From assembly GCA_947500415.1 (NCBI GenBank), contig CANMRT010000002.1, forward strand, positions 186,001 through 250,000: DNA of 64,000 bases, in the 5' to 3' direction. This DNA is from an uncultured Roseicyclus sp. (GTDB lineage: Bacteria; Pseudomonadota; Alphaproteobacteria; Rhodobacterales; Rhodobacteraceae). A program made the translations under genes and the position numbers. Under the pieces are notes generated by a model, which did not search any database, was not told the origin of the DNA, and saw only the letters and a list, made by a program, of their open reading frames with translations. Positions 1,510 to 39,215 of the stretch are shown here, piece after piece. Position 1 is the first letter of the stretch. Every line of letters starts with the position of its first letter.

Positions 1510-3407
1510 CCGACCAATCCCTTTGTCTTCAAGACATCCGCAATCTCATCCAGGATCGCCGGATCATCAATCGCCGCCGGCATCTTGTAGGCCTCGGCAT
1601 CCGCGATCTTCTGCATCGTCCCACGCAGAACTTTGCCAGAGCGTGTCTTCGGCAACCGCTGTACCGCCACAGCGGTCTTGAACGCAGCCACAGCACCAAT
1701 CTCAAACCGGACCATCTTTACCAGCTCGGCACAGATCTCATCCTCCGGCCGGTTCACACCCGCTTTGGTCACAAAGAACCCAAGCGGCATTTGGCCCTTA
1801 AGATCATCGGCCTTTCCAACAACTGCGCATTCCGCAACGTCCTTGTGATGTGCGAGAACCTCTTCCATCGCTCCAGTAGACAGCCTGTGGCCCGCCACGT
1901 TGATGATGTCGTCCGTGCGCGCCATGATGTGGAGATAACCGTCTTCATCTATGACACCGGCGTCGGACGTCGCATAATATCCTGGGAAATCATTGAGATA
2001 GCTAGATCTGAACCGATCTTCCGCGTTCCAAAGCGTTGGTAGGCAACTTGGCGGCAGTGGCAGTTTCACCACGATATTGCCGAGCGTTCCCGCCGGCACT
2101 GGGGCGCCGGAATCATCCAGAACCTGCATGTCGTAGCCCGGCATCGGCACACCCGGCGAGCCATGTTTCACAGGCAATTTCTCTACACCCATGGGCACCG
2201 CAGAAATCGCCCATCCGGTCTCTGTCTGCCACCAATGGTCGACTACGGGCACGCCCAAATGTTCCTCCGCCCATTGTAAAGTCGCAGGGTCCGAGCGTTC
2301 GCCCGCCAGGAACAGCGACCGCAGGCCGGAAAGGTCATAATCCTCCATCAATGCGGCTTCAGGGTCCTGCCCCCGGATCGCGCGGAAGGCTGTAGGCGCG
2401 GTGAACAGCACCCTCACATCATGCTCCGCGATCACACGCCAGAACGCGCCCGCATCGGGCGTACCGACCGGTTTGCCTTCATATACCACGCTCGTGCAGC
2501 CCGCGAGCAGCGGCGCGTAGCAAATGTAGGAATGACCAACGACCCATCCAACATCAGAGGCGGCCCAGAAAACCTCGCCCGGCCCGACGTCGTAGATATT
2601 CGCCATCGACCAATGCAGCGCCACCATGTGCCCACCGGTGTCGCGCACCACGCCCTTGGGCTGACCTGTCGTGCCAGAGGTGTAAAGGATGTAAGCCGGA
2701 TCCGTTGCGGCAACTTCTGCGCATTCCGCGCGACGTCCCTCGGCACGTGCAGCGGCCATGGCTTCGGCCCAGTCCAGATCGCGACCTTCCGTCAGTTCAC
2801 AAGGCTGAACCTCTCGCTGAAGGATCAAACATGCAGCAGGCTTTACTTGAGCAAAATCAATCGCTTCATTCAGCAAGCTCATGTAATCAATCACGCGTCC
2901 TGGCTCGATCCCGCAGGAGGCTGAGATCACGGCTTTTGCGCCCGCATCATCAATCCGTGTCGCCAGCTCTGGCGCGGCAAAACCACCAAATACAACAGAA
3001 TGAACCGCCCCAATCCGCGCACAGGCGAGCATTGCAATCACCGCCTCAGCCACCATCGGCATGTAGAGGATCACGCGATCCCCCTGCCCCACGCCCATAC
3101 CTTCCAGCACGGCACCAAGCGTGGCGACCTCATCGAGCAGCTCCGCATAGGTGATCTTGCGTTGCGTATCCGTCACTGGGCTGTCGTAGATCAGCGCAAG
3201 GCGGTCGCCATGACCGGCCTCCACGTGGCGGTCAACCGCATTCCAGCAAGTGTTGCACGTCGCATCCGAAAACCACCGCCCGTAAACACCTGCATCCGGG
3301 TCAAAGATCGTCTCAGGCGTTTTGATCCAATCCACGCCCTGCGCCGCCTCGGCCCAGAAAGCGTCAGGGTTCGCGGACCAGGCCGCGTAGGTGTCTTTGT
3401 AGCTCAT
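1506..3407 (-). CDS. prpE: Propionyl-CoA synthetase (propionate-CoA ligase)
   Basis: 633 residues, the usual length for PrpE/Acs-type AMP-forming ligases. It activates propionate with ATP and CoA. The adenylation P-loop reads [15 protein letters not shown], and the Arg-Asp-x-Gly-Gly-His that follows is typical of PrpE rather than Acs. The WWQTETGWA motif and the C-terminal [17 protein letters not shown], with the catalytic Lys of motif A10, are intact. The start at 3407 is chosen because [10 protein letters not shown] is the conserved N-terminus and AAGGGACAAGAC precedes it as ribosome binding site; in-frame codons further upstream lack homology. It overlaps ridA by 4 bp. The methylcitrate genes are not in the window. 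Confidence 0.92.
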
Positions 3408-3516
3408 GTCTTGTCCCTTCAGACGTCGCAACGGACGCGCTCCGTTCGGCATGTTGCAACTGCCGCGTGGGGCGGTCAATCTGCGTTACCGCTGACTGTG
3501 ACGAAAGGGCATTGCC

Positions 3517-4422: not shown

Positions 4423-5226
4423 ATGAAACGCCTCCGCCCTTATCTGCAAATGACGACCGTCGAAGACCTGTGGACGCACCACACTCAAGTCTTGGCGTCC
4501 TACGGCTTTGACCGGGTGTTCTATGGCTTCAACGCCTTCCGGGGCGCGGGCCTTTACGACAATCCCGAAGATGCGCTGCTGCTGACCAATATGCCCACAG
4601 ATTATGTTGAGGCTTATGTCGACGGCGGCATGTTCCGCAACGGCGTGATGATGCGGTGGGCGATTGCCAACACCGGCGCTGCCTCCTGGCGCGACGTCTT
4701 CACTGCCATGGCCCATGAAGAGCCATCGCAGGGCGAGTTGGCCATGCGTGGCTTGAACGAAAAGCACGGGATCACGGCGGGCTATACCATCAGCTTCCCA
4801 ATGGCGATCAAGAACGCCAACGCGGGTATCGGCATGGCCGTCAAAAAAGGTATGGGCCAGGATGAGGCCGATGCGATCTGGGAAGAGCACGGTGCAGATA
4901 TCGAAACGATCTGCCATGTAGCCCACCTGTGCATCCTGCAATTGCCTGCCACTGGCCAGCGCAAGCTGCTGACTCCGCGCCAATCCGAAGTGCTGGAGCT
5001 TGTGGCCGACGGAAAAACCATGGCCGACATCGCCCTGCTGCTTGAACGCAACGTGGCCACAGTCGAAAAACACCTGCGCGGCGCACGCGATGCTTTGGGC
5101 GTTGAAACGACGGCTCAGGCGGTCCGAAAGGCCTCCATCCTCAACCAGATATTCCGTCTGGACGATAAGGAGGACAAGACCGCGCGCCTGCCTCATCTAA
5201 CCGGCTCTGTCGGCGACAGACGCTAA
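4423..5226 (+). CDS. LuxR-family regulator with autoinducer-binding-like domain (solo)
   Basis: 267 residues. The N-terminal part (about 15-170) matches the autoinducer-binding domain; the C-terminal part (about 190-250) is a LuxR helix-turn-helix with LTPRQSEVLELVADGKTM and VATVEKHLRGARDALG. No luxI-type synthase is nearby. In the ligand region, FRNGVMMRW stands where AHL receptors usually show Asp-Pro, so classical AHL binding is doubtful. The start at 4423 follows GAGGATCCCCCC weakly and removes an upstream extension that overlaps aroQ. An intrinsic terminator lies downstream at 5315-5336. Targets cannot be told. Confidence 0.85.
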   Translation: MKRLRPYLQMTTVEDLWTHHTQVLASYGFDRVFYGFNAFRGAGLYDNPEDALLLTNMPTDYVEAYVDGGMFRNGVMMRWAIANTGAASWRDVFTAMAHEEPSQGELAMRGLNEKHGITAGYTISFPMAIKNANAGIGMAVKKGMGQDEADAIWEEHGADIETICHVAHLCILQLPATGQRKLLTPRQSEVLELVADGKTMADIALLLERNVATVEKHLRGARDALGVETTAQAVRKASILNQIFRLDDKEDKTARLPHLTGSVGDRR

Positions 5227-5314
5227 GCGCGGCGGAATCACCGGCTGAATCAATTGCATCGCTCCTCGTTCCAAGGGGCTGATTTGGGTGATTTCGTTGT
5301 TTCAGACCCAAAAC

Positions 5315-5336
5315 CTGTCCTTTTAGACAGTTTTTT
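5315..5336 (+). terminator. Intrinsic terminator after the LuxR gene
   Basis: Stem CTGTC/GACAG (5315-5319 with 5326-5330), loop CTTTTA, followed by six T. It lies about 90 bp after the LuxR stop codon, and a 7-bp inverted repeat TTTGGGT/ACCCAAA lies just before it. Confidence 0.65.
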
Positions 5337-5419
5337 GACCATCGGGTAAGGATTTCCGCATCTATCTTGCGCGGGAGTGTTTTGGCATTCTGCAATCGTT
5401 CCGTGAGTGATGGCAATTA

Positions 5420-5681
5420 CGGCCAGGAACACCGGGCCTTGGTGGCGGCATTTTTCCGCCACCGGGTCCACCCAAAGGTCGCCCCTCGCGACCGGCGGGG
5501 CTCGAAGCGGGTGGTGTGTATTTATCAGCACCCGATATCCGCTTCGGGGAAACGGATCGGCCGCTGTCCCTCGGCCCATTCGACATTACGAACCGGCGCT
5601 CTTTGTCCCTTGTCCCTCGCGCCGGGTGTTCACTGAAGAAGCGGCGTTGCCTATGTCCCTGGGCGACGCCGTTTTCTGTTT
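5420..5681 (+). ncRNA. Candidate structured small RNA with four TGTCCCT loop motifs
   Basis: The plus strand shows successive perfect stems. GGTGGCGG/CCGCCACC is at 5441-5463. GGTCGC/GCGACC with loop CCCTC is at 5477-5493. CGAAGCGG/CCGCTTCG with an inner stem is at 5503-5546. GGCCG/CGGCC with loop CTGTCCCT is at 5559-5576. CCGGCGC/GCGCCGG, with a 19-nt loop holding TGTCCCT twice, is at 5593-5625. CGGCGTTGCC/GGCGACGCCG, with loop TATGTCCCTG, is at 5642-5671 and is followed by TTTTCTGTTT. The four motif copies start at 5565, 5604, 5611 and 5654, all unpaired. Loops with C-rich anti-Shine-Dalgarno sequence are typical of alphaproteobacterial trans-acting sRNAs. I do not see RNase P, tmRNA, SRP or 6S signatures. 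The 5' end is not defined. Confidence 0.6.
5642..5675 (+). terminator. Intrinsic terminator of the candidate RNA
   Basis: A 10-bp stem with one G-T pair and a 10-nt loop containing TGTCCCT, followed by TTTTCTGTTT. The T-rich side gives plus-strand direction. Confidence 0.7.
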
Positions 5682-5739
5682 GCGCCAGGCGGCACGCTTG
5701 CGCGCGATAAATAGACGGAAGCAGGACCAACTATGTGCC

Positions 5740-6339
5740 TTAGTTTGCGTCCCGTCTTTCGTAGATGCCTTCGATCAGGATGAAGTTACCGCCGTCACAT
5801 TGCCGGGCAATTTCTTCTAGATCATGAAAGCTCCGCCTGAATTCGTTCAGCGTCGATTGGTCTAAGGCTGACCCATACTGGCTACTGCCCAAGGGCGTTG
5901 GTGCAAGGTTTGTGAACCGCTCCAACAATCCTGTTTCCGCGATCTGTTCAAATTCAGCATCGTCGCGCAATGAAACCAGAAACTGAAACGATTCTGGAGT
6001 CCTCCAAGATCCGCCAACAACAAAACTGGTAAGAGAACATTCCGACTCAGCAACATCTGCACGAGCGTAGAATTCCACGTCGTTAGGTAGGGCTGGGCAA
6101 ACCCCATCCAAATTCACCACGCCGCCGTGGCCGGTACAGCTGGCATCATCGGTGTGGCCATATTCTGTGAGGATCTCCGCCGCCAACATGCTGCCCAAAA
6201 CGAAGTTCACGCGCCTGGCCACAAACCCTGAGTTCTGCAAGCCAAAAAAGATCGGGGAAGCGCCGAGAATTGGAACCACGATCAGGGCCGTTAGAAACAG
6301 CGGAAATAATTCATGCCTGACAAATGCTCTCAAATTCAT
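5740..6339 (-). CDS. Hypothetical protein, membrane-anchored
   Basis: 199 residues, not recognised. One hydrophobic segment near the N-terminus (LFPLFLTALIVVPILGASPIF, about residues 12-32) looks like a signal anchor. The remainder is soluble and acidic, with four Cys (in DASCTGHGG, VCPALP, ESECSLT and ARQCDGG) that could form two disulfides in the periplasm. The base composition is visibly less GC-rich than its neighbours, and no strong ribosome binding site precedes the ATG, so it may be recently acquired or poorly expressed. The gene runs convergent to the candidate RNA. Confidence 0.6.
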   Translation of the reverse strand: MNLRAFVRHELFPLFLTALIVVPILGASPIFFGLQNSGFVARRVNFVLGSMLAAEILTEYGHTDDASCTGHGGVVNLDGVCPALPNDVEFYARADVAESECSLTSFVVGGSWRTPESFQFLVSLRDDAEFEQIAETGLLERFTNLAPTPLGSSQYGSALDQSTLNEFRRSFHDLEEIARQCDGGNFILIEGIYERRDAN

Positions 6340-38985: not shown

Positions 38986-39215
38986 TCTTCCCCGTCATAA
39001 AGATTGATAGGCTGCGCCGGCATCACGGTGGAAATCGCGTGCTTGTAGACCAACTGGCTTTGACCGTCGCGCCGTAGCAACACACAGAAGTTGTCAAACC
39101 ACGTAATAACGCCCTGAAGCTTCACGCCATTGATCAAAAAGATGGTGACAGGAACCTTTGTCTTGCGGACGTGATTCAGAAACGCGTCCTGCAAGTTTTG
39201 TTTGTTTTCGGCCAT
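38982..39215 (-). CDS. hfq: RNA chaperone Hfq
   Basis: 77 residues, full length for an alphaproteobacterial Hfq. Sm1 motif [23 protein letters not shown] and Sm2 motif [10 protein letters not shown] with the Tyr-Lys-His. N-terminus [15 protein letters not shown]. Hfq brings small RNAs to target mRNAs, and is the natural partner for the RNA candidates in this window. It overlaps hflX by 4 bp. Confidence 0.98.

Follow-up and report, generated by a model that had tools for sequence, protein, structure and literature searches.

What is encoded by the GC-rich DNA between a luxR-type gene and tsf in this Roseicyclus genome? A sequence-only reading of the window (the whole 64,000-nt stretch analysed) had placed a candidate regulatory RNA at 5420-5681, with six hairpins in a 513-bp gene-free gap. 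The family comparisons described below instead put the start of the RNA near 5398, with an extra first hairpin and seven in total. The gap itself (5227-5739) stands if the minus-strand open reading frame (ORF) at 5740-6339 is a gene. This ORF, of 199 aa, lies between the RNA and tsf and had no Pfam match at E <= 0.001. That reading had overlooked three things: the 5′ hairpin that the family conserves, the promoter with a dyad behind a luxR gene immediately 5′ of the RNA, and how widely the RNA ranges in the family. The parts of the locus are as follows.

4423-5226, plus strand: luxR-type regulator gene, directly 5′ of the RNA (Pfam: Autoind_bind, 105.7 bits; GerE, 30.6 bits)
5312-5336, plus strand: terminator-like hairpin after luxR and before the RNA promoter (scan: 5315-5330 with T-run, both strands)
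5346-5361, no strand assigned: dyad GTAAGG-N4-CCGCAT, which agrees with the family dyad GTAAGG-N4-CCTTAC at 9 of 12 positions and starts at -52
5386-5391, plus strand: -10-like hexamer CATTCT at -12 to -7 (family pattern C-A----T)
5398-5681, plus strand: putative RNA gene, running from the proposed 5′ end through the terminator (in all 13 genus genomes; family model R1 matches 5398-5471, 33.8 bits)
5398-5430, plus strand: hairpin 1, GTTCC...GGAAC with inner GGC...GCC and invariant GTGAGTGATGGC (alignment, family model)
5434-5469, plus strand: hairpin 2 (fold; covariation of family hairpin 2)
5471-5499, plus strand: hairpin 3, variable in the genus (fold, alignment)
5501-5548, plus strand: hairpin 4, GTATT loop (fold; two-sided changes in the genus)
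5553-5582, plus strand: hairpin 5, loop TGTCCCT at 5565-5571 (fold)
5594-5622, plus strand: hairpin 6, loop TGTCCCT at 5604-5610 and 5611-5617 (fold; 3′ limit approximate)
5638-5681, plus strand: hairpin 7, predicted terminator, loop TGTCCCT at 5654-5660, then GTTTTCTGTTT (fold)

The most visible feature of the region is its repeated loop. TGTCCCT occurs four times on the plus strand of 5420-5681 (at 5565, 5604, 5611, and 5654), as the sequence-only reading had counted, and is absent from the opposite strand. The chance expectation given there, about 0.02, is close to the mean of 0.015 that we obtained from 1,000 dinucleotide-preserving shuffles of the region; on the stricter question of whether any 7-mer reaches at least four copies, 5 of the 1,000 shuffles did so. 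The copies fall, as described, in the loops of the last three hairpins, with two in hairpin 6. In the predicted fold of 5398-5683 the earlier statement that all copies are unpaired applies to the TGTCCC cores; three copies are wholly unpaired, and the fourth has its final T in a pair. The fold of 5421-5683 is strong (-135.1 kcal/mol, z = -5.5), surpassing 200 of 200 shuffles. Hairpin 7, previously called an intrinsic terminator, has a strong stem followed by GTTTTCTGTTT but was not listed by a simple terminator scan, perhaps owing to its loop length. The family's hairpin 1 is absent from the global minimum-energy fold, where 5424-5433 pairs with 5625-5635 instead. This long-range pairing (GGAACACC with GGTGTTC) is an alternative to hairpin 1 and, if the modeled fold is correct, could act as a switch.

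A DNA search (E <= 0.001) of this genome and 60 relatives detected the region in all 13 genomes of the genus and in none of the 48 others. The 13 genomes are not all independent, since two pairs are near-identical at the RNA. In each, the RNA begins with GTTCCGTGAGTGATGGC (window position 5398). Together the 13 RNAs hold 41 copies of TGTCCC, two to four each, compared with 1.84 expected from mononucleotide shuffles; 35 of these copies are fully unpaired, whereas 8% of random 6-mers are. The flanking stems vary, with 29 different 5′ arms under a simple stem-extension rule, and of the 41 pairs predicted for the 5′ domain, 11 show at least one two-sided change within the genus. A coding RNA was considered, given overlapping ORFs of 137 aa (5407-5820) and 89 aa (5367-5636), and rejected: no frame is free of stops across the 13 RNAs.

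The same element was found 3′ of LuxR genes in other genera. An exact 17-mer, GTTCCGTGAGTGRTGGC, is present in 14 of 17 such loci, and the remaining three are matched by a covariance model (L044, 29.0 bits; L036, 24.2 bits; L030 weakly, 15.7 bits, E 0.05). Across the Rhodobacteraceae the 17-mer occurs in 190 of 394 genomes, its reversed control in one; in a class-wide sample of 240 genomes it occurs in two, this genome and another of the family. At least 119 stretches came from a scan of named genomes, including Leisingera, Phaeobacter, Ruegeria, Shimia, Rhodovulum, and Rhodobacter, with a few chance matches in other phyla among the stretches listed. Four exact 17-mer matches in viral contigs were examined as phage-borne copies and set aside as chance, because two of them score 13.8 and 13.5 bits with the model and the others give nothing at E <= 0.1.

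The covariance model was built from the first two hairpins of 47 other-genus sequences, a subset of 109 picked by eye for alignability. Standard pairs fill 96.9% of the cells of this alignment, and 36 cells carry two-sided changes, compared with 11.4 in shuffles (0 of 500 shuffles reach 36). All of the two-sided change is confined to hairpin 2; variation in hairpin 1 consists of G-U changes plus three cells that are unpaired, and gathering the sequences by the 17-mer necessarily left its first 17 columns invariant. The model, built without this genus, recovered all 13 genus loci (26.6 to 36 bits), with 33.8 bits (E 7e-7) for the window. Among genomes at least 90% complete, it matches 242 of 395 in the family (about 60%; 222 of 351 genera), and no match was found in the other 153. 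The search of the Rhodobacteraceae that had been suggested as a check thereby returned a widespread family with covariation above that of shuffles. Rfam 15, in which a match to a known RNA would have been the contrary outcome, gave none at gathering score in the window or in 20 other-genus loci. The proposal of a regulatory RNA with conserved loops is upheld by the loop motif in all 13 genus genomes amid differing stems, by covariation, and by the lack of both an open frame and an Rfam match at gathering score. The most conserved element of the RNA is the 5′ hairpin, and the repeated TGTCCC is a feature of the genus Roseicyclus. The literature compared, PMC4809877 on the small RNAs (sRNAs) of Ruegeria pomeroyi together with PMC5107571, PMC8625941, PMC9779115, and PMC8307010, held no description of the RNA in the text available to us; one of the R. 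pomeroyi sRNAs may be this RNA.

How closely is the RNA tied to the gene before it? Among 149 loci, 141 had more than 300 bases upstream, and at 130 of these 141 a luxR-type gene lies directly 5′ on the same strand. Five of the 11 exceptions score as members of the RNA family (51 to 70 bits), and the other six are chance-like 17-mers, which score at most 19 bits or go unmatched. Across 43 family genomes outside the genus, in a table read off by eye, RNA and LuxR protein occur together in 24 and are both absent from 15, with LuxR only in three and RNA only in one (Fisher p = 8e-8); two of the three LuxR-only genomes (G023 and G084) have weaker RNA matches. The predicted RNA gene, its range in the family, and its tie to an orphan LuxR-type gene are well supported by these comparisons.

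The sequence between the two genes has a conserved layout. Some loci represent the same organism in two collections, leaving 125 distinct upstream sequences, from which the genus's own 13 loci were excluded. Counted from the first G of the RNA, a dyad, GTAAGG-N4-CCTTAC, is centered near -43.5, starting at -51 in 98 of the 125 sequences and at -52 in 18. It scores at least 9 of 12 in 113 of 125, compared with 5 of 125 shuffled sequences. Closer to the RNA, C at -12 (105 of 125), A at -11 (117 of 125), and T at -7 (117 of 125) are conserved, and -12 to -7 would constitute a -10 hexamer, provided that this first G is the true 5′ end. No -35 element is evident. Class II activation by LuxR-type proteins has this layout, with a dyad near -42 and no -35 element. 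The putative promoter is weaker in this genus than in the family: genus dyads score 9 to 11 of 12, the window's copy 9, and 6 of the 13 genomes retain T at -7. The hairpin at 5312-5336 was considered as a lux box and set aside because, with the T-run behind it, it resembles a terminator. A pseudoknot between hairpin 1 and the loops, sought by eye, was not retained either.

The regulator itself carries both Autoind_bind and GerE domains (Pfam). In LuxR-type proteins the aspartate of a DP pair holds the acyl-homoserine lactone. In a profile alignment, the aspartate of the CviR DP pair faces alanine, and of about 130 members of this LuxR group, 105 have Ala there and 18 have Gly, as does the window's protein. 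LuxI-family matches are present in all 13 genus genomes, and none of the places listed for them lies beside this luxR. Because the aspartate is missing and no listed luxI adjoins, the protein is probably an orphan LuxR-type regulator with another or an altered ligand, probably not an ordinary acyl-homoserine lactone.

C-rich loops extend beyond the genus in a different form. ATCCCCA occurs in 75 of 123 LuxR-linked RNAs of the wider set; in these 75 it is fully unpaired in 41, compared with 5% of random 7-mers, and has at least five of its seven bases unpaired in 60, compared with 16%. By fold, 67 of the 123 RNAs have a C-rich hairpin loop, a single one in 61 of the 67, and 56 have none. C-rich loops are thus widespread but not universal, and it is the multiplied TGTCCC form that sets this genus apart.

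Such loops could pair with ribosome-binding sites, and dnaK was the best mRNA candidate. In 12 of 13 genus genomes the dnaK site is AAAGGGACA, complementary to the loop (TGTCCCTT), and in all 13 (dnaK starts L372-L384) it contains AAAGGGAC. Across 35 genomes, this one and 34 of other genera, the mean longest match between site and loop was 5.66, compared with 5.69 when the two were re-paired (permutation p = 0.60), and GGGAC is absent from the dnaK site in three other lineages bearing TGTCCC (G425, G293, and G179). We therefore rejected dnaK as a family-wide target, since loop and site do not covary across genera; within the genus it could still be one. The earlier suggestion of a trans-acting RNA or sponge fits the data, but its best mRNA candidate failed this family-wide test. 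The Hfq protein, to which that suggestion had pointed, is indeed encoded in the window (near 39200, minus strand).

A wider search of the 13 genus genomes for AAGGGACA-N3-9-ATG, in which we read 144 sites among the matches listed, double entries included, returned dnaK, a small lipoprotein, an alpha/beta hydrolase, a rhodanese, and nuoH as recurrent genes. Two genes before luxR, AAGGGACAAGACATG lies at the start of an acyl-CoA synthetase gene (AMP-binding, ACAS_N; 3405-3419, minus strand) and is complementary to the loop. Among the sites read it recurs once, at the orthologous start in G004, and this mRNA is a possible target by complementarity. In 12 genomes the loop form of other genera gave about 295 matches, of which we read 110 loci; recurring among these are the starts of an IMP dehydrogenase gene (Pfam), in two genera, and of an ABC permease gene. 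ATGGGGAT, which complements the ATCCCCAT loop, stands shortly before the IMP dehydrogenase start in L460 and L538, of two genera. None of the candidate mRNA targets so far is convincing, because the shared ancestry of ribosome-binding sites is uncontrolled in these comparisons.

Comparison among genomes attests the predicted RNA gene, its structure, the conservation of its loops, its linkage to LuxR, and the promoter layout of the family. Transcription, LuxR binding, the ligand, the mode of action, and any target we infer, as follows. The promoter, with its dyad near -43.5, no evident -35 element, and a -10 element, would be of the activator type. Most likely, the LuxR-type protein encoded upstream would bind the dyad and switch on the RNA upon meeting its ligand, probably no ordinary acyl-homoserine lactone, and the transcript would end at the intrinsic terminator. 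The C-rich loops would then, most likely, base-pair with several mRNAs at their G-rich ribosome-binding regions, which would impede translation. In Roseicyclus the loop would have become TGTCCC and multiplied to two to four copies, giving higher avidity or more targets. Activation by LuxR is the best-supported step and we consider it likely, although binding to the dyad is putative, being deduced from position and linkage. Pairing with mRNAs could go either way, and the chances are about even that the reading as a whole is right, namely, a stand-alone RNA gene of about 280 nt that is activated by LuxR and acts in trans through C-rich loops.

The same loops invite another explanation, that they titrate a protein or another sRNA in the manner of CsrB and do not pair with mRNAs. 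One short loop displayed by several hairpins with unrelated stems, in copy numbers that vary from two to four between species, is what such a decoy would look like, and the mRNA target searches yielded no convincing one. Outside the genus, however, 61 of the 67 RNAs with any C-rich hairpin loop have a single one, which suits pairing better than titration; we regard a sponge as rather doubtful. A bolder reading, which we offer with similar caution, is a two-gene signaling module present across the family, in which an orphan LuxR has ceased to read ordinary acyl-homoserine lactones, senses a different molecule, and has a multiloop RNA as its main output. The RNA would join a fixed 5′ module for a partner to fast-changing, exchangeable loops that in this genus form a multivalent decoy.

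Control of the RNA is a separate question. It might answer to another regulator or be constitutive, with LuxR a mere neighbor, or the RNA might act on luxR. Five strong RNA matches have no directly adjacent luxR, the dyad is degenerate in this genus, and LuxR binding to it is putative. Against this stand the linkage at 130 of 141 sites, the tight co-occurrence, and the place of the family dyad, which is the usual binding place of LuxR-type activators; we consider control independent of LuxR improbable. As for chance hairpins in GC-rich DNA, some 7-mer does reach four copies in 5 of 1,000 shuffles, but this explanation, to which we assign almost no weight, is refuted by the family-wide conservation and covariation of the RNA, together with its constant genomic location and its promoter. 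We accordingly retain LuxR-activated transcription of a trans-acting RNA as the preferred reading.

Known systems resemble parts of this arrangement. In SgrR-SgrS, OxyR-OxyS, and GcvA-GcvB, the activator gene adjoins the sRNA. Here, too, an activator gene adjoins an sRNA that it seems to control; in contrast, the activator is of the LuxR type, both genes have one orientation, and by Rfam the RNA is no relative of those sRNAs. Protein sponges of the CsrB/RsmZ type present repeated GGA in hairpin loops. Several hairpins sharing one short loop recall them, but the loops here are TGTCCC; GGA occurs in the RNA only at 5426, 5548, and 5554 and in none of the TGTCCC loops. The Vibrio Qrr RNAs are likewise sRNAs wired to a circuit of the quorum-sensing type. 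They act downstream of LuxO and sigma-54, and their target is a master regulator's mRNA, whereas in the present case the protein that seems to stand above the RNA has an autoinducer-binding domain. The nearest Rfam hint was CcsR1 (RF02791; 20.3 bits, E = 0.017), far below its gathering score of 65.3, and a member of our RNA family from another genus gave no CcsR hint at E <= 2. CcsR1-4 of Rhodobacter sphaeroides come from the same family of bacteria and share short GC-rich hairpins and C-rich loops; the CCUCCUCCC motif of CcsR1 is absent from the plus strand of the whole window. According to the portion of PMC8307010 available to us, the CcsR RNAs share a transcript with ccaF1, out of which they are processed, whereas the RNA described here follows luxR and has its own predicted promoter.

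Through its tie to an RNA family, an orphan LuxR would acquire a definite output, and it would become testable which signals the LuxR proteins that lack a partner synthase perceive and what they control. The Rhodobacteraceae rank with the most common marine bacteria and include standard laboratory species. Across them, the combination of a fixed 5′ part with changing loops would provide a natural series for the evolution of sRNA binding loops.
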